From a virus, in the IMG/VR virus record IMGVR_UViG_3300017755_000077, positions 1-26,795 of that record: DNA of 26,795 bases, one strand, 5' to 3'. Under the pieces are notes generated by a model. The model did not search any database. It saw only the letters and a list, made by a program, of their open reading frames with translations, and had not been told where the DNA came from. This document shows positions 1,660 through 26,174 of the stretch, piece by piece; position 1 is the first letter of the stretch; every line of letters begins with the position of its first letter. The position numbers and the translations under genes were made by a program.

Positions 1660-1745
1660 GCTCGGGTGGTGGAATTGGTAGACACGTCAGACTTAAAATC
1701 TGATTCGCCGAACGGTGAGTGCGGGTTCGAGCCCCGCCCCGAGTA
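1660..1745 (+). tRNA. tRNA-Leu (anticodon UAA)
   Basis: Class II tRNA. The acceptor stem 1660-1666 pairs with 1738-1744, with a G-U first pair. The anticodon stem TCAGA/TCTGA flanks the loop CTTAAAA, with anticodon TAA at 1694-1696. A long variable arm follows, and the T-arm is GCGGG-TTCGAGC-CCCGC (1721-1737). CCA is not encoded. It reads UUA, the dominant leucine codon in the phage genes here. Confidence 0.96.
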
Positions 1746-1777
1746 CAAATCCCCAAAACGTTATTTTTTTATTATAT

Positions 1778-1852
1778 GGTGTTTATAGCTCAATTGGTTA
1801 GAGCATCGGTTTGTGGTACCGAAGGTTATGAGTTCGATTCTCATTAAACACC
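1778..1852 (+). tRNA. tRNA-His (anticodon GUG)
   Basis: The acceptor stem GTGTTTA (1779-1785) pairs with TAAACAC (1845-1851). G at 1778 and C at 1852 form the extra G(-1):C73 pair that marks histidine tRNAs. The anticodon arm is TCGGT-TTGTGGT-ACCGA with GTG at 1813-1815. The T-arm is ATGAG-TTCGATT-CTCAT (1828-1844). A full CCA is not encoded. Confidence 0.96.
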
Positions 1853-1857
1853 CATAT

Positions 1858-1934
1858 GGACTCGTAGCTCAGCTGGATAGAGCAATACCCTTCTAAGGTA
1901 TCGGTCGTAGGTTCGAATCCTACCGGGTTCACCA
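1858..1934 (+). tRNA. tRNA-Arg (anticodon UCU), CCA encoded
   Basis: The acceptor GGACTCG (1858-1864) pairs with CGGGTTC (1924-1930), with two G-U pairs. The anticodon arm is ATACC-CTTCTAA-GGTAT with TCT at 1892-1894. The T-arm is GTAGG-TTCGAAT-CCTAC (1907-1923). Discriminator A1931 is followed by an encoded CCA at 1932-1934. It reads AGA, by far the most used arginine codon in the phage genes. Confidence 0.96.
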
Positions 1935-2066: not shown

Positions 2067-3272
2067 ATGAAAAACATATTTTTGGTTTTAATAACCATTA
2101 TGTCTTACACCACATATTCCCAAACGTGTAATTTAGAACTTATAAGTCAAACACCACCTGCTACAACAGATGATGTACATTCTTTTGTTGTTGAATTTAC
2201 TAATGCTGAAAATTGTGGATGTAATGAATTTACACAATTTGATGGAAATACTTGTGATGGTAATGGATCTAGTTCTGTAAATAATAATGAAAATGTAACT
2301 CATCTTGTTTTTGGTATTCATTATATAAATGAAATCACTGGAGAAGACTTGGGTGAAAATACAGATTGCACTTCAACAACGTTCCATCCAGGTTGGTCAT
2401 ATTCAAACGTTACAAATTGGGGAGGGTGGGAAACAGGTACAACTGCAACTATTAATATAAATCCACCATTTGCGTGGGAGTGTATTTTAGCTACTCCTCT
2501 TGAAGGATATTGTTGGGAAGTTGTAATATGGCAGATTAATTTATCCCAAACAGCAGGTGTTGATGACTTTCCAGATAATGGTTGGACTGTTGGTAATAGT
2601 TTTAACCAAACACAGACATATCCCGATATTAATATAGATGATAATAGGATAATGGTCTGTCCTAACCCTTGTATACCAGATACAATTACAGAATATATTA
2701 CTGATACTTTATATATAGAATTACCACCAGATACTATTATAGTAACACAAATTGATACCATTATAACGCAAGAATACGTGTATATAACCGACACACTCAT
2801 AGAGTATGTCAATATATATGAAATAGACACTATCGTTGAATATATCGCAGATACTTTAGAGATTGAAGTTATAGAATATGTTTTTTTAACAGATACTATT
2901 ACTGAAACTATTGAAGTAGATTGTAATACTAGTTTACCTTGTAATGAATTAATAATAGACGAATGTTGGCCCTGGAGTATTTTTATCCCTAATGTATTTA
3001 CTCCAAATAATGATGGTATAAATGATATTTGGCAAGTTATTCTTGATTTAGATTGTTGGGTTGATATAGAATTTAAAATTTACAATAGATGGGGAGGTTT
3101 GGTTTTTGAAGGATTTGGAGATGACTACAATAGTTACCCATATTGGGATGGTAGTATGCAGGGTGGACCCTCTTATGTAGCTGATGGTATATATGTTTAT
3201 ACTTTTTATGCTAGAAAACATAACTCCCCAGAAATTTATCAAAAGTCAGGACATCTTACCATTGTAAGGTAA
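2067..3272 (+). CDS. Secreted protein with T9SS type-B (CHU_C) C-terminal sorting domain
   Basis: 401 residues. A type-I signal peptide (residues 1-18; MKNIFLVLITIMSY then TTYS) is probably cleaved before Gln19. Residues 20-200 are Cys- and Trp-rich with no family recognised. Residues 204-287 form a low-complexity Thr/Asp/Ile tract with recurring TDTI/TDTL units. Residues 305-401 match the type-B sorting domain: FIPNVFTPNNDGINDIW, then FKIYNRWGGLVFE, WDG, DGIYVYTFYA and a final GHLTIVR. In Bacteroidota this domain sends proteins through the outer-membrane type IX system. The gene therefore probably makes a protein displayed on or released from the infected cell. Adhesion, surface masking and exclusion of other phages are all possible. 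It follows the tRNA cluster and looks like an accessory gene. The domain call is strong; the role is unknown. Confidence 0.88.
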   Translation: MKNIFLVLITIMSYTTYSQTCNLELISQTPPATTDDVHSFVVEFTNAENCGCNEFTQFDGNTCDGNGSSSVNNNENVTHLVFGIHYINEITGEDLGENTDCTSTTFHPGWSYSNVTNWGGWETGTTATININPPFAWECILATPLEGYCWEVVIWQINLSQTAGVDDFPDNGWTVGNSFNQTQTYPDINIDDNRIMVCPNPCIPDTITEYITDTLYIELPPDTIIVTQIDTIITQEYVYITDTLIEYVNIYEIDTIVEYIADTLEIEVIEYVFLTDTITETIEVDCNTSLPCNELIIDECWPWSIFIPNVFTPNNDGINDIWQVILDLDCWVDIEFKIYNRWGGLVFEGFGDDYNSYPYWDGSMQGGPSYVADGIYVYTFYARKHNSPEIYQKSGHLTIVR

Positions 3273-7760: not shown

Positions 7761-9475
7761 TGGGATTAGAAAGAGTAATAATAAAGCAAGTAGTTAAAGT
7801 AGCTAAAGATACTGGTAAGCTAGAAACTGCTCTTTCTTTAATGGAAGAGAAATTAAAAGCACAAGGTGTTAAAGTTATTGAAAAAGCAGGAATAGATCCT
7901 TCTGTACTTCCTTTTAATTTAGAACAACTATTAGAGGGAAATATAGATAATGAAGGACAGCTTTTAACACCTGAATCTATTTGTAGTATTCCTCCCTTAA
8001 CTGAAATACAAAAAGCAAATGCTATAAAAGAAGTAGAAAATACTTTAACAAATCTTAATAATATTATTGAGAATAAAAACAAAATACAAGTAGCGCTTCA
8101 AACTATAAAAACCCCATTAACAGTATTAGCAACAACAGCTTCAACTTTAGATAGTTTAATTTCTACAGTTAAGGGAGCAATTCAAGTAATAAAAGCAATT
8201 CCAGTCCCTACTGCAATTATTCCACCCCAAATAGGAGGTATTGGTGTGCCTATAAATGTATTAACTATATTATCAGATTCATTAGATCAATTAGATAAAT
8301 TATTAACGATGGGGAAGGGAGTTACTAAATCAGTCCCAATATTAACTAGAGCTGTTCTTAATATGATAAGTTCTATTATAGATAAATTAAATGCTTTAGA
8401 TAATGTAATTCAACCTGTTATAACAACAACTCAAATTGTTCAAACTGCAGCTACAGTTGGAGAACTATGTCCTGTTTTAGAACAAGCTACAATAGATGTA
8501 GTTGCAACATCAATTTCTCAAACTATTATTGATTCTGTAGCAGCCTCCGGAGATAATTCCTCAATAGATGTTAATGTATCTTCTGACGCTGCGCTTGCTG
8601 CAGCTTTACAAGCTAATGCCTCACCAGGTGTGTATTATAATGGATTTAGATTAACATTAGAATCAAACCCAGATAATGAATTTTCATTTCCATCAAGAAG
8701 AATTTCTGCAACTAGAGATTTTGCAAAAGATCCAAATTTTATATACAAAAGAAGAGGTGGAATTGATGGTGGTTCTAATACATCAACACAAATATTAGCA
8801 GTAGTAACAATATATAATGCTCCTAAAAATGAACCACAAGGAAGATATTCATATAGTTCATCAACTCAAGTTTTATTTGAAGAAATGAAATATGCTATTG
8901 ATCTTTATATGTTAGGGGTTATGGGTAGAGCAGTAATTCAAGAAATAGATAACCCAGCAAATATTGAAATTGCGGGAGCTGGTAACAGCGATGGTAGTCA
9001 AACTGCTGTAGGAGTAGGTTCAGATCCACTTCCCCCAGGTTGGGTAGTAAATGGACCAGTTGTAGTTCAACCCTTAGACAGAAATACTGGAAATCAAGTT
9101 CAAGGAACTATATCAATAAACGAACCAGTAGTAATAACTATGAATACTTTAGGTGGAACTGATCAGGATAGTTTTACTAATAGTTTAATTACTTTTCAAA
9201 AAGGAAATAAACCTATGAATTCTCAATTAAGTAGAGAATCATTTGCTCAAAGAAATCAATCTATAACAGCACCAATTACTATATTAGCAGAAACAGGCAT
9301 ATGGAATTATACATTAGCTATAATTAATAATTTCCAAGATACAGGTAATCAAGCTAATTTTGCGGTATCAGCCGTTAGTATTGGAGGTACTGTTGGAGGA
9401 GTAGGTAGTGGAGGAAGTGCAGGAAATAATACAGTTATATTAGGTAATGACACATCTTCAAACACCCAACTGTAA
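7760..9475 (+). CDS. Putative tail/baseplate structural protein
   Basis: 571 residues. Residues 1-260 are largely helical, with long Ile/Thr/Val-rich stretches (LDSLISTVKGAIQVIKAIPV; LTILSDSLDQLDKLLTMGKG). These are too polar and broken to be clear membrane spans and may instead form extended helices. Residues about 290-400 contain a beta-rich domain ending in SSSTQVLFEEMKYAIDLYML. Residues about 430-571 are beta-rich and Gly/Asn-rich, resembling an Ig-like module. No signal peptide is seen. It lies between the spike candidate and gp25, starting by TAATG overlap, so a baseplate hub or tail-tube role is likely. No named family is recognised. Confidence 0.7.
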   Translation: MGLERVIIKQVVKVAKDTGKLETALSLMEEKLKAQGVKVIEKAGIDPSVLPFNLEQLLEGNIDNEGQLLTPESICSIPPLTEIQKANAIKEVENTLTNLNNIIENKNKIQVALQTIKTPLTVLATTASTLDSLISTVKGAIQVIKAIPVPTAIIPPQIGGIGVPINVLTILSDSLDQLDKLLTMGKGVTKSVPILTRAVLNMISSIIDKLNALDNVIQPVITTTQIVQTAATVGELCPVLEQATIDVVATSISQTIIDSVAASGDNSSIDVNVSSDAALAAALQANASPGVYYNGFRLTLESNPDNEFSFPSRRISATRDFAKDPNFIYKRRGGIDGGSNTSTQILAVVTIYNAPKNEPQGRYSYSSSTQVLFEEMKYAIDLYMLGVMGRAVIQEIDNPANIEIAGAGNSDGSQTAVGVGSDPLPPGWVVNGPVVVQPLDRNTGNQVQGTISINEPVVITMNTLGGTDQDSFTNSLITFQKGNKPMNSQLSRESFAQRNQSITAPITILAETGIWNYTLAIINNFQDTGNQANFAVSAVSIGGTVGGVGSGGSAGNNTVILGNDTSSNTQL

Positions 9476-9496: not shown

Positions 9497-9504
9497 TATA
9501 AATA
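9497..9504 (+). promoter_or_regulatory. Possible T4-type late promoter core (TATAAATA)
   Basis: TATAAATA sits in the 31-base gap before the gene at 9507, within ATATTTATAAATAAA, a string also found before 21637. With T4 spacing, transcription would start about 6 bases after the box, i.e. at or just past this ATG, so it might serve gp25/gp6 or an internal start instead. In DNA this AT-rich the octamer also occurs by chance within genes. Confidence 0.3.
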
Positions 9505-9506
9505 AA

Positions 9507-9857
9507 ATGAAGACATCAGCATTAAAAACAATTATTAAAGAAGCAGTAAAGGAAGCGATTCAAGAAGAATTGAAGGAAATTTTACTGGAAGCTGTTAAAA
9601 CTCCAAAAGTTATATCACAAGTACCAGTTGCACCTGTAGTTGAAAATTATACCCCACCAACTCCACCGCAACCTGTAATGTCAGCTGAGGATAAAAGAAC
9701 AGCATACAAGAATATATTAGGGGATACAAATATGGCTTTAAATAGTAGTAATGTCCAATCATTCCAACCTCAAGCAGGAATGGATGTAGCTAATGGAACA
9801 TTACCAGCAGGAGAAGTAGATATGTCTCAAATAATGGGATTAATGAATAATAAATAA
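9507..9857 (+). CDS. Small protein with N-terminal amphipathic helix
   Basis: 116 residues. Residues 1-31 form a strongly amphipathic charged helix (KTIIKEAVKEAIQEELKEIL). A Pro/Val-rich linker follows (about 33-57), then MSAEDKRTAYKNILGD and a Met/Gln-rich tail ending QIMGLMNNK. No enzyme motif is present. Layout between the 571-residue structural protein and gp25 (TAATG overlap with gp25) suggests a minor virion or assembly protein. If the TATAAATA just upstream is a real promoter, Met58 would be an alternative start. Confidence 0.7.
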   Translation: MKTSALKTIIKEAVKEAIQEELKEILLEAVKTPKVISQVPVAPVVENYTPPTPPQPVMSAEDKRTAYKNILGDTNMALNSSNVQSFQPQAGMDVANGTLPAGEVDMSQIMGLMNNK

Positions 9858-10264
9858 TGGCAAGAATAATACAAAATAAATGGCCTATAGATCTACAACC
9901 TAGTAGAGCTATTGGTTTTGGTTTCCCTTTAAATGGGGATGCTGTTTTTGTGCCTACATATTATACTAGAGATCAAATTAAAGCTAATATGGTTAATTAT
10001 TTGTTAACCAATAAAGGAGAAAGAGTATTTAAGCCAAGTTTTGGAGCTGATTTAAGAAATTTATTATTTGAAAATATGCAAGATATATCAAATGATGATT
10101 TAAAAAATACAATCCAAGATGATATAGCACTTTATTTCCCTAATGTAATGATTAAAGAAATAAAATTTAACAATCTACCAGATGAAAACACAGTTAATTT
10201 TACATTAGTATACCAAATTGTAAATTTTGGGGTAGATGATGAAATTAATATATTACTACAATAA
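9857..10264 (+). CDS. 25: Baseplate wedge protein gp25
   Basis: 135 residues, the usual size for the GPW/gp25 family. The N-terminal part has the typical SRAIGFGFPLNG region; the middle has MVNYLLTNKGERVFKPSFGA followed by DLRNLLFE, the family's best conserved part, where the chain leads into the inner-baseplate contact. The C-terminus is beta-rich. gp25 joins gp6 and gp53 in the wedge and helps trigger sheath contraction; P2 gpW and the T6SS protein TssE are relatives. It starts and ends with one-base TAATG overlaps, so it is tightly linked to gp6. This is one of the most secure calls in the window. Confidence 0.93.
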   Translation: MARIIQNKWPIDLQPSRAIGFGFPLNGDAVFVPTYYTRDQIKANMVNYLLTNKGERVFKPSFGADLRNLLFENMQDISNDDLKNTIQDDIALYFPNVMIKEIKFNNLPDENTVNFTLVYQIVNFGVDDEINILLQ

Positions 10265-14094: not shown

Positions 14095-17000
14095 ATGACA
14101 GAAATACCAGTATCTTCTTCTATGCAACAAATTAATCCTTCATTATTATTTAATGATGGGTTTGAGTTAGAAAATAGTTCTTTAATACCTAATGAAGACT
14201 ATTCAGGGTCTTTTACTCCTGGGATAAATCAAATTGAATTTTATGTTTATGATTCTCAAAAAAGTATCCAATATTCAGATTATAACTTTTTAGATTATCA
14301 AATAACTCAAAATACTACACCTGATGCTAATCCTGTAGGGGCAAATACGGAGCAATTAGCTAACCCAGTTGTAGGTAATTCTACTACAGACGTAGTAAAT
14401 ATAAACCCTGAAGAAGATATATATAATGCTGGTTATAGTAATGGAGTGTTATATGGGGTTTATAATTTTATAAATAATCAACTAAGTTCATCTATAGATA
14501 ATAAATATTTCATATCAGAAATATCAGGAGATAGAACAGAAATTAGAATAAAATCTAATTATATTACCCCAACTCAAATGAAGTCTTCATATATTTCATT
14601 TGAAAATACTCTTAATACTCCTAAATATTTCGATGAATTTTATATAACATTTGGTGAAAATGAATACCATATTGGTGTTAATAGTCAATATGATGCTGGT
14701 TTAAATACAAACACAGCAAATACTGAAGCTGATAAAACACCAGGTGAACCTTCAATTCTAATTAAGTTATTTGATCCACTTCCATCTAGATATCAAGTAT
14801 TAAATGAGTTATATGTTGTTACAAAAACAGCAGAAACTCAAGTATATGAAGTAGATTTTGTTGAAGATTTAAGTGTAATAAGTGATACAATTGCTTTAAA
14901 AGGTCCTAATATAAATTTAGACATTAAAGATTTTGTAAATAACTCAACAACTTATAAAAATAAAAATGAATTATTAAATACTGAATCTAGCGGATCTAAA
15001 GATCAATTTTTAAGTATTTTAGATCAAAAAGGTATAAAATTAACTCCTAATTACTCAACTTCATCATTTGACCAATTCGTTAATTTTTCATCAGCAAAAG
15101 AAAGAACTAAAAACTTTTATACAAAAGTATCTAGAATACAGTCATATGAAAATGATATTGCTGCTATTAATCCTATAACAGGATCGAACCCAACACCTCA
15201 AATTTCACAAAGTATAGCAGGTTTATACACTAAAATTGAAGAAGAAATAAGATCTTTTGATGGTTGGGATTATTATTTGTACTATAATACAGCCTCTGAT
15301 TCTTATCCAAAAGATTTAGCAATAAGTAATGATTTTCCATTTCCCTTATTAAACACAGGAAGTACTGAAGTATTAGAATGGCTAGGTAGTGATGTAGAAA
15401 ATAGTCAATATTATGGAGGGGTTTTATTATCAGCTTCATTATATGATAATAATAATCAAAATTATTTATATTATACTATTCCTACATTTATAACAGAGCA
15501 AAATAATAATGATAATTATGTAGATTTTGTAAATATGGTTGGTCAATCATTTGATGAACTTTGGCTGTATACAAAAACTATAACAAATAAATTAAATACT
15601 ACTAATGTTTTAGATGAAGGTGTTCCTTTATCATTAGCAGATGATGTAGTTACATCTTTAGGGTATACAGGATTTGGTAATAATTATAATAATCAAGATA
15701 ACTTTATAGGGTTAGCAGGTAATGATGATGGGGTTTATGTTCCACCAACAGGAAGTGAATTAATAAACCATTATATAGCTATTAATAATGGTGAAATAGT
15801 TAATTATTGGGATCCTAATTATTCATGGGCAGATTATGTTGAACAATTAATAACAAAAGGGTTTCCATATCCAATAGATGATGTAAGTAAAGAAATATTT
15901 AAACGTCTTTACCATAATATGTCTTATCTTGTAAAGAAAAAAGGTACAGTAGCTGGGTTAAGACAATTAATTAATATTTGGGGTATTCCAAATACTATTT
16001 TAAGAATAAATGAATTTGGAGGTAAAAATAAAGACCAAACAGATGATTATGATTTATGGTATGAAAGATATAGTTATGCTTACTCCCCAGTAGCTAATTC
16101 ATATAGAGCAAGTGCATCAGCTATAGTTCCATGGATGCCTTTAGAAAGAAATAGAATAGCAGATGCAGGAGCTTATGTAGTTCCTGATGGTGTAGCTCTT
16201 AGGTTTAAAACAACAGGTTACCCATCATCTTCATTTGCTGGAAGTTTTGATAAACAAACCATAGCAGCAAAAAAATCAAATGGGTTAGATGATAAAGAAT
16301 TTGATTGGGGGATAACACTTAATTATACAGGATCTACATCAGGCTCATATTCAGGTTCATCAAATAGTGATTATAGAGATTGGGCAGAAATGCAATTTTA
16401 TATATCAGGAGCAGCTGCGGATGGAGGTAATGCTATTTCAGATCCAATTTACTTACCATTTTACAATAAAGATTGGTGGTCTGTTATCTTACAAAGAAAT
16501 GAACACGTAGCTTATACTAACAATTCAAATAGAGTAACATATACTTTATATGTTAAAAATAAAATATATAATGGGTGGGATGGAAATAGTTTAGGATTTG
16601 AAGGATCAGCTAGTTTAGATTCTTTTGATGTTAGTGGGGGTGGATTATATGGAACAGGATTATATGGAACAGCTTTATATGGTGCCCAAATATCTGGATC
16701 TTTAAATTATGCTTGGAATAAATTTGGTACAAATGCTAATGATGGGGTTTATATTGGGGGTAGAATAAATGGAACAGAAGTAGGAGGATTAACAACAAAT
16801 TTAGCTGGTCAAGCATTTTCTGGATCATTTCAAGAATTTAGATACTATTCACATGATATAAGTGAATCTGTATTTAATGATTTTGTAATGAATCCTGAGT
16901 CAATTGAAGGTAATGCATCAGTAGGAAATGAAAGTTCATTTGATATAGTAAATTTTAGAGCACCTTTAGGAAATGAATTAGAAAGTTTATTTACTTCTTC

Positions 17001-20000
17001 TCTTCTTATAAAGCATAATGAAGTAATTCCTTCACTACATCCTGCAGTTACAGCATCGTCTGATTTATTAATAACAGGATCATTTGTAGATCCTGCTACA
17101 AATATAACTTCATCAGATTATAAAATAGTTTATGAAGCAAATACAGTAACAAGAACATATAGTAATACAAATACAGAAACTTACTTTTTAGATCAACCAG
17201 CAGTAGGATTTAGAAATAGAATTACAAATAAAATACAAAATACTAAAGATTTAAATTTTGGAACAGTATTATCAGGGCAAGTTAGTATTGAAAAAGATCC
17301 ATTTATTAGTCAAAGTTATACTGAAAATTTGAATCAATTAGAAGTTGCTTTTTCACCCCAAGATGAAATAAATGATGATATAATACAGTCTTTAGGATAT
17401 GGTGCAATACAAGAAGTATTAGCAGATCCAAGATTTAGATCATCATCAGATAGTTACTACCCTGAGTTAAGAGATATAGCAAAAGAATATTTTCAAAAAT
17501 ATGAAGGTAGTAATGTGTACGATTATTTAAGATTAATTAAATATTTTGATGATTCACTATTTAAAGCGATCAAAAACTATGTACCAGCTCGTACTAGTGT
17601 GTCTACAGGTATTGTAATACATCAAAATATGTTAGAGCGCAATAGGTATCGAGAACCACAAGTTGATTCATATACTACGCAATCTTATGGGATAACAAAT
17701 ATACCTCTAACAACACAAAATTTAGAACTAACAGGTAGTATTGAATTACATGAAATAACAGGTAGTACAGGGGGTAGTTTAAATAAATATAATATAACAG
17801 GTTCCCAATTAGGTTACTATGGGTTTACTAGAAATGGTGGAAATGCAACTGTTCAACCTTTAGAAGCTAGATCATTGCATACTACTCCATCTATAAATGA
17901 TATGGGTACAGCAACTTCACCTAATGGTAACATTTATGGTGAAATAAATAATTCATTCCCTACAGAATACAACTCAGCAAATCCTGTAGTAACTCCATAT
18001 TTTAAAACTTTAAAACCTATTAAAACAGGATTTTCAATATGGTTAGATACTAATGTGATAACACCGGTTAATGTTATGATTTCTTCATCATTAAGAGGTG
18101 AAATATTTAATCATGAATTTTCTAATGCTTTTAATGGATCTACAGTAATAACATCTCCTTTAGATATTACACCAGATGAAACTATAGCATTTTATGCTTA
18201 TAACCCATCTAATCTATCATCATTATTTTTACAAAATTATGTTGTTAAAACACATGATTATGAAACACCAAATAATCCAATAACACTTCTTCCATTAGGA
18301 GACATTTCATCATCAGCTGATCCATCAGATCAAGCTTATATTGAATATAATCAAACACAAGTAGGATTATTAGGTGAAGTTATAGATAATCAAGAAGAAT
18401 TTTATGATGGAGAATTTAGTGGTAGTACACTTAATGTGGGTCAATTTTATAATACTCAATATAATCCTTACTTAAGAGTAAATAAAGACAGTATAGCAAA
18501 TGATAGAGCAGTTAACTTACCAGTAGTTGATTTTACAAGTGGAACTACTCAAATAAATCCAAGATTAAAACAAGGTGTAAGTTTGGTAACATCTTTATTT
18601 CCAGGTGCATTAAGTACTGGTGTAACAACAGCAGCAGGATTTACGTTTCCAACAACTTTTACTAATGTTCCTATTACAATTACATCTGGAACAGTTACAG
18701 GAACTATATTAGCTACAGTTAAAATCTGTAGCCTAATTGGGAATTCATATGTATGCGAACTTACGATTACAAATACACCACCTCCTTATATAACTGTAGG
18801 AACAACACTCCAAATTCCAGCAAACACAATGACTGGGGTTACTAGTGATGTTGATATGCAAGTAACAGATTCTTCTTTGAATCAATTTAGTAGTATAACT
18901 GCTAATGGTTTTGCAGTTACAAATACAGCTAATAGTTATTATATATTTCTAGCTGGTCAACCTTCAAATTTATTAAATGGTAGAAAATATAATATATCAT
19001 TTGAAGTTTCAAATTATAGTGGAGGTGGTGTAATAGGTCTTTCAACAAAAGATTCAACAGGAATATATAATTTATTTACATTAGGAGCTCCAAATACAAC
19101 ATATGGAATTTATTCTGCTTCATTCCAAACAGCATTTATACCAAATGGCCCAGAAACATTAGCAGCAAGAGTATCAGTATCCCCTGGATTTGGAGGAATT
19201 ATTACTGATTTTAATATTTCACCTAATTATGCAGGTGATTCTTGGTGGGATGATGTTTATGCAGATATTTACTTAAACCCATTACAGCAAGATCAATGGC
19301 AAATTCAAAATACACAAAGTATTATATTTGATAATTCTGATTACAGCCCATTAAACAATAATGTTAATTTAAATAGAAGTAGTAGTACTAGGTTATTATT
19401 ATCATATAATGATGAACAATATCAACCTGAAAACTTTCAAAATGTTGTTACTTACTCATTAAATAATACTAGTGAGTCAATGTTTGCTGATGTACCAGAT
19501 AGTAATTATACACAACTAGCAAGTATAAATCCTAGATATAATGGATCTAGAATAACAAGTTTAGATTACAATAATTTCACTCCATCAGGTACTATAGGTA
19601 TAGTAGATTCTTTACCAGTTCAACCATTTAATAAAAGACAAAGATTACCTTATCAATCTACAGTAGCTCAAAAGTTTATAAATGGAGTTTCAAAATCCGC
19701 AGTAACAGGTTTAGATTCTTGGGAAGGAGATAATTCTTATGGAAAAACAGCAGTAATTAATAAAAATCCTGCTTACATAGCTCATTTCCAAGATTCATTT
19801 GAACAATATAATTATTGGGATTCATATGAATATAATATTGATTCTGTTATTTTTATTCCAACAGAAAGTATAGCATCAAAAAATTATATACCTGATAGTA
19901 TAGGGATAGATGGTACTAACTTTAATAAAAAATTAATGTCATCTGTATTTGAACCTGGTAGAAAAATGGGGATTAGTTATGACCAACAACAATTTTTATA

Positions 20001-21585
20001 TAAAAATATTATAAATAATTCACAATCTATTATAAACTATAACAATTTAACACCAAAAGTAGGATTAGGAAGTAGTATAGATATAGGTGGTGGTTCTACT
20101 AAATTTAAAATTATAAATGGAAATGCAGCAAGTAGATTAGATCTTGCAGTATCATGGTCATATAATTACCAATCTCAAGCTACAGGATCAGGTAATGTGC
20201 CACCAGCTGCATCACCAGGAAATCCATATATTCAATTAAAAGCTCAATTAAATACAATAAAAGATTATGCTCAACCCGGAAACCCTTCAGTAACAAGTGC
20301 AGGATTTTTATTAAGTGGTAGCCGATCTAGTAGGCTTGACTATGCTAGAACTCAAGGTGGATATATTAGTAGGGGGGGATTAAATGAAACTTATTTAGAA
20401 ATATATGGACCTCAATTAGCAAATTTCCACACATTTAATTGCGCAGTATCTGGAGGGTGGTCAGCACCTGAAGCCCAATGTTATTCTAACCCCTACTTAG
20501 TTAGATTTGCTAATAATAATGGAAGTAAATTCCCTGCTTGGGTAGCAAAAGCAAATAAAAGGGATGCACAAAGTTATTATAACTTTACTCCATCAGGTTC
20601 TTTAATGCCCGGGTATGAAGATACTGGTACACCTTATTTAATACAAAGAGGAGATGTTATTAGAGCTGAAGGTACAATTCAAACAGGTGAAGATAGTGAT
20701 GGAGAAAGTTTAGTTAGAGTTGAAGAAAGAGGATTTATTGAAGATTTTACAGTAATGGATGTTCAAGATTATTACTACTCAGCTTCTATGGAATTAGCAC
20801 AGTTAATGACTGGGAATGATGGAGGTAGTAATGCTAGTTCAACATTTGGAGAAGTTGGTACTTTGTATAATACAAGTGGAAATTCAATTGCATCCCAAAA
20901 TATATCAGCTACTAATGCAATTGGATTTGAAAAACCCATAGGAACTGGAGGGGCTACAGTAAGATTTATTTCAGATGGTAGTACTATTACTGAAGCTTAT
21001 ATTAATTATGGAGGTGTTTCGACATTTGCTGCTTCAAATCCCAATTATGCAGTTGGTCAAACATACACATTTGCGGCAAATACCTTAAACACCCCAGGAG
21101 GTGGTTTAGGAGTATCACAAGCAATTACAGTAGAAATACAAGTATGTAATATGAAAAACCATATTGTTGTTGTTGGGGGTGTTAGTACTTTACAATCAAA
21201 TACGGGATCTGATAATAATTTTGAGATTTGTACTATAAATGCTTGTAATGACCCAATTACATTTCAATGTTATAGTGCAGGAACATATGCTGTAAGATAT
21301 CCTACATTTCTTAAAACAGACAGAAATCCATTAGAAGTTCTTGCAGGACTTACTGATTATCATGTTACTAAATTTACAATTCGAAGACAATTAGAAGATG
21401 AAACATCAGTTATGGGTTATAATATAAGTCCACCTTCTGGCTCAGAGGGGGCATTTACCCCATCTGGACCTGGATTTTTAATACCAGATGATTTAACTAC
21501 AATTCAAAAGGATAATGCTTTAAATATTATTAATGATTTAAGAGCTAAAAATGCATTTCCAGGTAAAGCAGAAAATAAATCATAA
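14095..21585 (+). CDS. Giant baseplate protein, gp7/P2 gpI-like with LamG-like region
   Basis: 2496 residues, more than twice T4 gp7 (1032). Residues about 570-640 contain NYWDPNYSWADYVEQL, then KRLYHNMSYLVKKKGTVAGL and RQLINIWG, which match the P2 gpI (T4 gp7-like) signature of a Trp-rich start and a KGT...LR...G helix. Residues about 660-950 form a LamG/jelly-roll-like region ending QEFRYYSHDISE, with LYGT repeats near 850. Residues 1117-1187 (ELRDIAKEYFQKYEGSNVYD ... FVPAR-like NYVPARTS, then GIVIHQNMLERNRYRE) look like a conserved wedge segment. About 1483-1600 and 2287-2350 are beta modules, the second like those in other proteins here; 1606-1712 is CBM-like. It probably forms the outer wedge and carries adhesin-like domains. 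Confidence 0.75.
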   Translation: MTEIPVSSSMQQINPSLLFNDGFELENSSLIPNEDYSGSFTPGINQIEFYVYDSQKSIQYSDYNFLDYQITQNTTPDANPVGANTEQLANPVVGNSTTDVVNINPEEDIYNAGYSNGVLYGVYNFINNQLSSSIDNKYFISEISGDRTEIRIKSNYITPTQMKSSYISFENTLNTPKYFDEFYITFGENEYHIGVNSQYDAGLNTNTANTEADKTPGEPSILIKLFDPLPSRYQVLNELYVVTKTAETQVYEVDFVEDLSVISDTIALKGPNINLDIKDFVNNSTTYKNKNELLNTESSGSKDQFLSILDQKGIKLTPNYSTSSFDQFVNFSSAKERTKNFYTKVSRIQSYENDIAAINPITGSNPTPQISQSIAGLYTKIEEEIRSFDGWDYYLYYNTASDSYPKDLAISNDFPFPLLNTGSTEVLEWLGSDVENSQYYGGVLLSASLYDNNNQNYLYYTIPTFITEQNNNDNYVDFVNMVGQSFDELWLYTKTITNKLNTTNVLDEGVPLSLADDVVTSLGYTGFGNNYNNQDNFIGLAGNDDGVYVPPTGSELINHYIAINNGEIVNYWDPNYSWADYVEQLITKGFPYPIDDVSKEIFKRLYHNMSYLVKKKGTVAGLRQLINIWGIPNTILRINEFGGKNKDQTDDYDLWYERYSYAYSPVANSYRASASAIVPWMPLERNRIADAGAYVVPDGVALRFKTTGYPSSSFAGSFDKQTIAAKKSNGLDDKEFDWGITLNYTGSTSGSYSGSSNSDYRDWAEMQFYISGAAADGGNAISDPIYLPFYNKDWWSVILQRNEHVAYTNNSNRVTYTLYVKNKIYNGWDGNSLGFEGSASLDSFDVSGGGLYGTGLYGTALYGAQISGSLNYAWNKFGTNANDGVYIGGRINGTEVGGLTTNLAGQAFSGSFQEFRYYSHDISESVFNDFVMNPESIEGNASVGNESSFDIVNFRAPLGNELESLFTSSLLIKHNEVIPSLHPAVTASSDLLITGSFVDPATNITSSDYKIVYEANTVTRTYSNTNTETYFLDQPAVGFRNRITNKIQNTKDLNFGTVLSGQVSIEKDPFISQSYTENLNQLEVAFSPQDEINDDIIQSLGYGAIQEVLADPRFRSSSDSYYPELRDIAKEYFQKYEGSNVYDYLRLIKYFDDSLFKAIKNYVPARTSVSTGIVIHQNMLERNRYREPQVDSYTTQSYGITNIPLTTQNLELTGSIELHEITGSTGGSLNKYNITGSQLGYYGFTRNGGNATVQPLEARSLHTTPSINDMGTATSPNGNIYGEINNSFPTEYNSANPVVTPYFKTLKPIKTGFSIWLDTNVITPVNVMISSSLRGEIFNHEFSNAFNGSTVITSPLDITPDETIAFYAYNPSNLSSLFLQNYVVKTHDYETPNNPITLLPLGDISSSADPSDQAYIEYNQTQVGLLGEVIDNQEEFYDGEFSGSTLNVGQFYNTQYNPYLRVNKDSIANDRAVNLPVVDFTSGTTQINPRLKQGVSLVTSLFPGALSTGVTTAAGFTFPTTFTNVPITITSGTVTGTILATVKICSLIGNSYVCELTITNTPPPYITVGTTLQIPANTMTGVTSDVDMQVTDSSLNQFSSITANGFAVTNTANSYYIFLAGQPSNLLNGRKYNISFEVSNYSGGGVIGLSTKDSTGIYNLFTLGAPNTTYGIYSASFQTAFIPNGPETLAARVSVSPGFGGIITDFNISPNYAGDSWWDDVYADIYLNPLQQDQWQIQNTQSIIFDNSDYSPLNNNVNLNRSSSTRLLLSYNDEQYQPENFQNVVTYSLNNTSESMFADVPDSNYTQLASINPRYNGSRITSLDYNNFTPSGTIGIVDSLPVQPFNKRQRLPYQSTVAQKFINGVSKSAVTGLDSWEGDNSYGKTAVINKNPAYIAHFQDSFEQYNYWDSYEYNIDSVIFIPTESIASKNYIPDSIGIDGTNFNKKLMSSVFEPGRKMGISYDQQQFLYKNIINNSQSIINYNNLTPKVGLGSSIDIGGGSTKFKIINGNAASRLDLAVSWSYNYQSQATGSGNVPPAASPGNPYIQLKAQLNTIKDYAQPGNPSVTSAGFLLSGSRSSRLDYARTQGGYISRGGLNETYLEIYGPQLANFHTFNCAVSGGWSAPEAQCYSNPYLVRFANNNGSKFPAWVAKANKRDAQSYYNFTPSGSLMPGYEDTGTPYLIQRGDVIRAEGTIQTGEDSDGESLVRVEERGFIEDFTVMDVQDYYYSASMELAQLMTGNDGGSNASSTFGEVGTLYNTSGNSIASQNISATNAIGFEKPIGTGGATVRFISDGSTITEAYINYGGVSTFAASNPNYAVGQTYTFAANTLNTPGGGLGVSQAITVEIQVCNMKNHIVVVGGVSTLQSNTGSDNNFEICTINACNDPITFQCYSAGTYAVRYPTFLKTDRNPLEVLAGLTDYHVTKFTIRRQLEDETSVMGYNISPPSGSEGAFTPSGPGFLIPDDLTTIQKDNALNIINDLRAKNAFPGKAENKS

Positions 21586-21607: not shown

Positions 21608-21623
21608 CGTATATTTATAAATA
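21608..21623 (+). promoter_or_regulatory. Candidate promoter upstream of the 21637 gene
   Basis: CGTATATTTATAAATA (21608-21623) lies in the 51-base gap after the giant baseplate gene. TTG at 21587-21589 is 20 bases before TATATTTA (21610-21617), matching the Bacteroidota TTG/TAnnTTTG spacing. TATAAATA (21616-21623) also equals the T4 late core. Either gives a short leader to ATG 21637. This is the best of the candidate sites. Confidence 0.5.
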
Positions 21624-25244: not shown

Positions 25245-26174
25245 ATGATAAATGAACTATTAGTTAATTTGGTAAATTCTGTACTTGGTACTGGAAAAAG
25301 AACTGCAAGAGGCAATCAAGCTTATTGTTGCCCTTTCTGCCACCATTCAAAGCCAAAATTAGAAGTTAATTTTTCTGAAAATAAAAAAGGATATAATCCA
25401 TGGCATTGTTGGGTTTGTGGTAAAAAAGGTACAAGAATATCTACATTATTTAAACAGTTAAAAGCATCATCTGATAAATTTGCTGAATTGTATAAATTAG
25501 TAGCTGAAGAAAAAGAATACCAAACAGTAGAAAATAAAATAGAAGTAAAACTACCTAATGAATTTAAACCTATTAGTAATAATTCTACAGATTTAACAGG
25601 TAAAAAAGCATGGAATTATTTAAAAAATAGAGGAATTACTATAGATGATGTGTTAAAATATAATTTAGGATATTGTGAATATGGGAATTATAGTAATATG
25701 ATTATTATTCCCTCTTATGATAATAATGGTAAATTAAACTACTTTACAGGTAGATCATTTGAAAAAGATCCATATAGAAAATATAAAAATCCTGAATCAT
25801 CACGTAATATTATTCCTTTTGAATTATTCATTAATTGGGATTTACCTTTAATTTTATGTGAAGGTCCATTTGATGCTATAGCTATTAAACGAAATGCTAT
25901 ACCTTTATTAGGTAGTAACATACAGGGTTCTTTAATGAAAAAGATAGTGACATCAACAGTTAAAAAAATATATATAGCACTAGATTCTGATGCAATTAAA
26001 AAAGCAACCAAATATGCAGAAGAATTTATAAATGAAGGTAAGGAAGTTTACATGGTAGAACTTCAGGGGAAAGACCCTAGTGAAATGGGATTTACCGATT
26101 TTACTCAATTAATCCAAAATACCATTCCATTAACACAATATGATTTAATGGAAAAGAAATTACAACTTATATGA
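25245..26174 (+). CDS. DnaG-type DNA primase (T4 gp61-like)
   Basis: 309 residues, near T4 gp61 (342). The N-terminal zinc-binding domain shows CPFC (Cys29, Cys32) and HCWVCG (Cys55, Cys58). The TOPRIM catalytic core shows LILCEGPFDAIAI at about 202-214, with the catalytic Glu, and IALDSDA at about 244-250, with the paired Asp residues. The protein makes RNA primers on single-stranded DNA for lagging-strand synthesis. A separate helicase-interaction domain is not obvious, in line with phage primases that bind a separate helicase. The 3' end overlaps the nuclease gene by ATGA, suggesting a replication/recombination operon. The family call is secure. Confidence 0.92.
   Translation: MINELLVNLVNSVLGTGKRTARGNQAYCCPFCHHSKPKLEVNFSENKKGYNPWHCWVCGKKGTRISTLFKQLKASSDKFAELYKLVAEEKEYQTVENKIEVKLPNEFKPISNNSTDLTGKKAWNYLKNRGITIDDVLKYNLGYCEYGNYSNMIIIPSYDNNGKLNYFTGRSFEKDPYRKYKNPESSRNIIPFELFINWDLPLILCEGPFDAIAIKRNAIPLLGSNIQGSLMKKIVTSTVKKIYIALDSDAIKKATKYAEEFINEGKEVYMVELQGKDPSEMGFTDFTQLIQNTIPLTQYDLMEKKLQLI

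Follow-up and report, generated by a model that had tools for sequence, protein, structure and literature searches.

A multi-lineage phage gene family encoding putative cell-surface display proteins with a type B T9SS sorting domain

A type B cargo gene in a flavobacterial virus

The window, by which is meant the whole stretch of DNA analysed, is an IMG/VR virus record of 26,795 bases, and its only CHU_C domain lies in the gene at 2067-3272. This open reading frame is real, and its G+C content of 31.8% falls inside the range of the neighbouring genes. The anatomy of its product is set out in Table 1, together with the tRNA genes that the first-pass annotation had already noticed beside it.

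Table 1. Features of the type B cargo gene and of the adjoining tRNA cluster.
Feature	Positions	Strand	Basis
Whole gene, phage-encoded T9SS type B cargo, 401 amino acids (aa)	2067..3272	+	ORF list, profile matches, homologues
Sec signal peptide, aa 1-18 (MKNIFLVLITIMSYTTYS), Q at +1	2067..2120	+	sequence; xx[A/S/G]Q site in 67/67 homologues
N-terminal domain (head), aa 19-201, 183 aa, beta-rich, almost phage-only	2121..2669	+	alignments, viral versus bacterial scans, AF2
Stalk, aa 202-303, eight DT[IL] sites, length varies among homologues	2670..2975	+	motif counts; low-confidence AF2 region
Type B T9SS sorting domain (CTD), aa 304-401 (CHU_C / TIGR04131)	2976..3269	+	PF13585, TIGR04131, CTD alignment
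tRNA-Leu(taa), tRNA-His(gtg), tRNA-Arg(tct)	1660..1934	+	directly upstream of gene, where many homologues have a partner gene

The same record carries T4-type baseplate wedge proteins (phrog_261/43 at 9857, phrog_219 at 10264), a DNA primase (phrog_47 at 25245) and a SegE-type GIY-YIG nuclease. Its nearest cultured relative is Flavobacterium phage immuto, a myovirus (gp6 43.5%, primase 49.5%), and the window is a virus of marine flavobacteria. The T4-like context proposed in the first-pass annotation holds for the baseplate but is a loose description of the whole phage, because the best cultured relative is immuto. Immuto itself lacks the cassette, which is therefore not essential for such phages. 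The T4 late-promoter sequence TATAAATA occurs at 9497, close before the 9507 gene, at 21616, close before the 21637 gene, and also at 1416; no site of this kind precedes 2067, and that gene is not assigned a late promoter.

Could the contig be bacterial chromosome mis-called as a virus? IMG/VR may hold misclassified contigs, and Bacteroidota genomes typically carry T9SS signals, but the baseplate, primase, tRNA and SegE-type nuclease genes share one strand of the 26.8-kb record, and relatives of the gene have terminase, portal, prohead protease and head genes as neighbours. This evidence contradicts a mis-call, whose probability is close to negligible, and the gene is phage-borne, as had been claimed for it from the letters.

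Elsewhere in the window, 117-758 encodes a small predicted lipoprotein with an LSSC lipobox-like start and no significant family match; its first 30 residues resemble the Cor superinfection exclusion family weakly and below significance (E 0.078). Positions 1937-2016, 3' of tRNA-Arg, hold a tRNA-like sequence with near-complementary TAGGCAT / TTGCCTA ends, recognised by eye and without an ARAGORN call, and 14095-21585 is a 2496-aa tail-region open reading frame with no Pfam or PHROG match.

Head, stalk and sorting domain

The C-terminal domain matches PF13585 (CHU_C) over aa 306-398 (E=6.4e-16, 58.7 bits against a curated cut-off of 27) and TIGR04131 over aa 307-400 (E=1.5e-10, 41.1 bits against a curated cut-off of 35). 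These profile scores bear out the type B sorting domain of the first-pass annotation, and the C-terminal motifs it had quoted (FKIYNRWGG, WDG, DGIYVYTF and GHLTIVR) are present; the signal peptide and TDTI-rich stalk that it described are likewise found. Of the two findings that it had named as fatal to its claim, the lack of a significant type B profile hit and a bacterial origin of the contig, neither holds. The 401-aa protein has no PHROG match at all. Type B export needs five conserved motifs, A-E (PMC12618676), whose letters are not printed in that paper; five stretches of the domain look conserved, their match to A-E being our own mapping, and 17 columns, in the PNxxTPNxDGxND, NRWG, W and GxY stretches, are invariant in 13 divergent phage homologues.

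The N-terminus resembles a signal peptide, and a hydrophobic N-terminus ending in xx[A/S/G]Q is seen in every homologue tested, a call made on sequence pattern rather than by a trained predictor. A lipoprotein in place of a secreted protein was rejected: Gln or Thr precedes the cysteine, so there is no lipobox. Ten of the 13 cysteines are invariant across 33 homologues, which suits an oxidised, exported protein. Pairs with usable dS give dN/dS values (NG86) below about 0.35 over the whole length of the gene, for example 0.15 for the window against locus L005 and 0.07 for L010 against L011, and the family is under purifying selection.

The full-length structural model is poor (mean pLDDT 57) because of the low-confidence stalk, and it has no fold match below 1e-3. 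Modelled alone (AF2, 63 homologues), the N-terminal domain reaches pLDDT 85.8 and pTM 0.86; it has no PDB match by sequence and no PDB fold match at E <= 0.001. Two virus models match it at E <= 0.001, the first a 91% identical protein of Virus NIOZ-UU157, the second distant and unnamed.

The eight DT[IL] sites of the window's stalk begin at aa 205, 213, 222, 230, 242, 254, 262 and 276. Across 62 homologues, 511 of 541 stalk D[ST] dipeptides (94%) precede A/I/L/M/V/T; stalks have 4.9 sites per 100 aa, whereas the head and the C-terminal domain have 0.39 and 0.05, and 61 of the 62 stalks lie above residue shuffles (z 3.6-9.6). D[ST] followed by one of these residues is the Bacteroidota O-glycosylation motif, belonging to a system for non-cytoplasmic proteins (PMC12871550), and the stalk is probably O-glycosylated. 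This is put as a prediction because repeat expansion or beta-strand alternation could account for part of the pattern instead.

Family spread and partner genes

Scans of IMG/VR returned 79 relatives of the whole protein in 76 loci, about 89 viral-contig stretches with the N-terminal domain and 378 stretches with the type B domain; homologues in other phages, which the first-pass annotation had suggested looking for, exist in several lineages. In 84,980 bacterial and archaeal species genomes a pattern scan, which was not exhaustive, found the N-terminal domain on one contig, from a 'Pseudomonadales' MAG; phage-type neighbours lie on that contig too, and an elemo-like terminase has a 49% relative encoded in the same genome. 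No relative of the domain is present in 50,697 deposited phage records, a set from which near records may be left out. The domain is nearly confined to phages. Among the carriers are an immuto-like myovirus, elemo-like podoviruses and a T4-like head-module locus (L112), where the genes are bracketed by those for a T4-type prohead protease and the major head protein, and every record holding the full gene has exactly one CHU_C domain. The family is large, spans several phage lineages and has a head specific to phages. Contigs L064-L067, four in number and 33-170 kb long, all stop at one base inside the gene (position 8310), a shared endpoint that suggests assembly breaks arising from head-domain variation.

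Two other readings of the gene meet this evidence. A host gene carried by chance, of no benefit to the phage, would fit a host-type C-terminal signal and the existence of immuto without the gene; it is contradicted by the low dN/dS values and by the recurrence, in several phage lineages, of one gene family whose head is almost phage-only, and is highly improbable. Slightly less so, though still very unlikely, is a virion structural protein (a fibre or whisker) that uses the type B domain for folding and not for secretion. The beta-rich head on a repetitive stalk and the position of the genes near or inside structural modules favour such a protein; the signal peptides of all homologues, the invariant cysteines and the conserved type B stretches argue against it.

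In 45 of 69 non-redundant loci the gene is accompanied by a second secreted gene (median about 120 aa). It lies directly upstream in 30, where it overlaps the start of the putative display-protein gene by exactly 10 or 13 nt. This small partner consists of a signal peptide, a conserved core (QHVFTSVGAEKW...) and a dockerin-like tail, so named by eye: the partners tried gave no match to Pfam dockerin (PF00404) and a weak one to NF041540. Other loci have an adjacent M43 metallopeptidase or a fragment of one (L111/L112, L107/L191, L108, L165, L182, L213 and L223), or an M43 domain fused N-terminally to the display protein (L024, L025 and L110), with PF05572 (Peptidase M43) matches of 1e-11 to 1e-23 in the partner genes. 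The zinc site HExxHxxxxxH is intact in all M43 copies except the L165 fragment, the glycine of HExxHxxGxxH being replaced in some. The N-terminal domain is present in 77 of 101 non-redundant type B proteins, and these divide into 42 with the small partner, six with an adjacent M43 gene, three fused and 26 with neither, some of the last at contig ends. The window has neither gene, its tRNAs standing upstream instead, and a search for a partner-gene remnant gave no significant match.

Such pairings raise the question of which protein does the work. The display protein could mainly anchor or partner a secreted protease, with M43 as the working part and the small-partner forms, such as those of the window's relatives, derived from it. 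Cleavage of extracellular matrix or of proteins on the host surface would then help the phage to spread or strip away receptors. M43 genes overlap or abut eight of the 101 type B proteins and are fused to three, the zinc site is kept almost throughout, the L112 protease has both the small partner's start (QHVFSSV..EK) and its dockerin-like tail, and the L182 protease matches Dockerin_1 at 2.3e-6. Yet more than half of the N-domain proteins have the small partner only and no protease, the window has neither, and the N-terminal domain is conserved even where there is no protease; dockerin-like tails are a common motif, and sharing one says little by itself about descent. A principal role in serving a protease is accordingly doubtful. 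Cohesin-dockerin pairing with the partner was rejected, as cohesin appears only among the low-scoring matches of the full-length model and is absent from the matches listed for the confident head-domain model.

Additional genes occur in this neighbourhood. A DUF285/BspA-type leucine-rich repeat gene lies between small partner and display gene and overlaps both (L147:7416-9905, 829 aa), with a shorter relative in the same place, again overlapping both neighbours (L082:6607-7896). A DUF5675 gene is inserted at this position in L028, L137, L141, L039 and L142. A small lipoprotein gene (family 43, six loci) usually follows 3' of the display gene with a 4-nt ATGA-type overlap (L100, L108, L110, L024 and others).

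Probable export and display, and comparison with known systems

The signal peptide, the ten cysteines, the O-glycosylation-type stalk, the conserved C-terminal domain and purifying selection together argue strongly that the protein reaches, or passes beyond, the infected cell's surface. That this export and display make use of the host's T9SS and of one of its PorP/SprF-type shuttles is quite probable. In hosts, type B cargo leaves through the T9SS and passes to PorP/SprF-like shuttles; these are in limited supply and take adhesins to static or gliding positions (PMC12618676, PMC9143113). A cognate shuttle is normally required for type B C-terminal domains, and its gene is usually the next one downstream, an arrangement that is common and not obligatory. 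In F. johnsoniae, orphan type B substrates, which have no shuttle gene next to them, are exported all the same (PMC12618676), so a missing neighbour does not exclude type B membership. A phage-encoded shuttle was rejected: an exported gene of 220-420 aa lies directly downstream in 0 of 57 loci, and PF11751 was absent from 34 records in a search whose positive control likewise gave no match. With no shuttle-like gene downstream in the 57 loci, a host shuttle is assumed.

Taken as a whole, the gene is best explained as making a cell-surface display protein, an account that seems likely. An infected Bacteroidota (flavobacterial) cell would send the phage protein through Sec; in the periplasm it would be oxidised, and sugars would probably be O-linked to its DT[ILV] stalk. 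Recognition of the type B domain would then move it through the host T9SS to a host PorP/SprF-like shuttle, which would receive it and anchor it at the cell surface, presenting the phage-specific N-terminal domain at the end of a stalk that bears glycans. Other phages may display a second secreted protein alongside it, either a dockerin-like one or an M43 metalloprotease.

What would such display be for? Fold and family matches do not reveal the purpose of the protein, and the most likely one, remodelling of the infected cell's surface, is the least certain part of the account. As candidate purposes, the protein may compete with host adhesins, exclude superinfecting phages, change adhesion or take part in proteolysis; the first-pass annotation had likewise suggested that it might block other phages, change adhesion or alter gliding. 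By competing with host type B adhesins for limiting shuttles, the phage protein might reduce superinfection or alter adhesion and gliding; exclusion or adhesin competition as the purpose is a tentative proposal. A more sweeping surface takeover, in which glycosylated display protein floods the limiting shuttles and displaces host gliding and adhesion proteins and phage receptors, in some phages with a tethered M43 protease, is unlikely. The spread of the family suggests that marine Bacteroidota phages routinely remodel the outside of the infected cell, and the head domain, the stalk, the type B signal and the M43 partner offer testable targets for phage effects on gliding, adhesion and superinfection in Bacteroidota.

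The host type B adhesins SprB and Fjoh_3952 (PMC12618676, PMC9143113) share with the phage proteins a Sec signal and a type B C-terminal domain, and are the hosts' own T9SS-exported, PorP/SprF-like-anchored proteins. Their genes usually have a shuttle directly downstream, whereas the phage genes lack one and carry a phage-specific head. A0A7S9STS8 of Virus NIOZ-UU157 is a 406-aa family member, the 91% identity extending over the N-terminal domain; it has a database annotation only ('gliding motility-associated C-terminal domain-containing protein') and is not discussed in the literature found naming that virus. No description of the type B family, its phage-specific head or its M43 or dockerin-like partner was found in the open-access literature.

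Phage-encoded T9SS cargo as such has precedents. BACON ORFs of crAss-like phages also carry T9SS sorting domains, mentioned in passing for one phage cluster (PMC6949934); these are BACON repeats, and neither a type B stalk family nor an M43 or dockerin-like partner is described there. Cryophage encodes T9SS type A cargo (endoglucanase, GH39 and PA14) thought to use the host system, for which its authors proposed competition or superinfection exclusion (PMC7468147). Like the present family, these are phage-encoded proteins with sorting domains and a presumed use of the host system, but the Cryophage genes are type A, three in number, highly variable and confined to one phage, whereas here many phages share a single conserved head, stalk and type B family, and a second secreted gene is often paired with it. 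An earlier curiosity thereby becomes a conserved, widespread gene family with recognisable parts.
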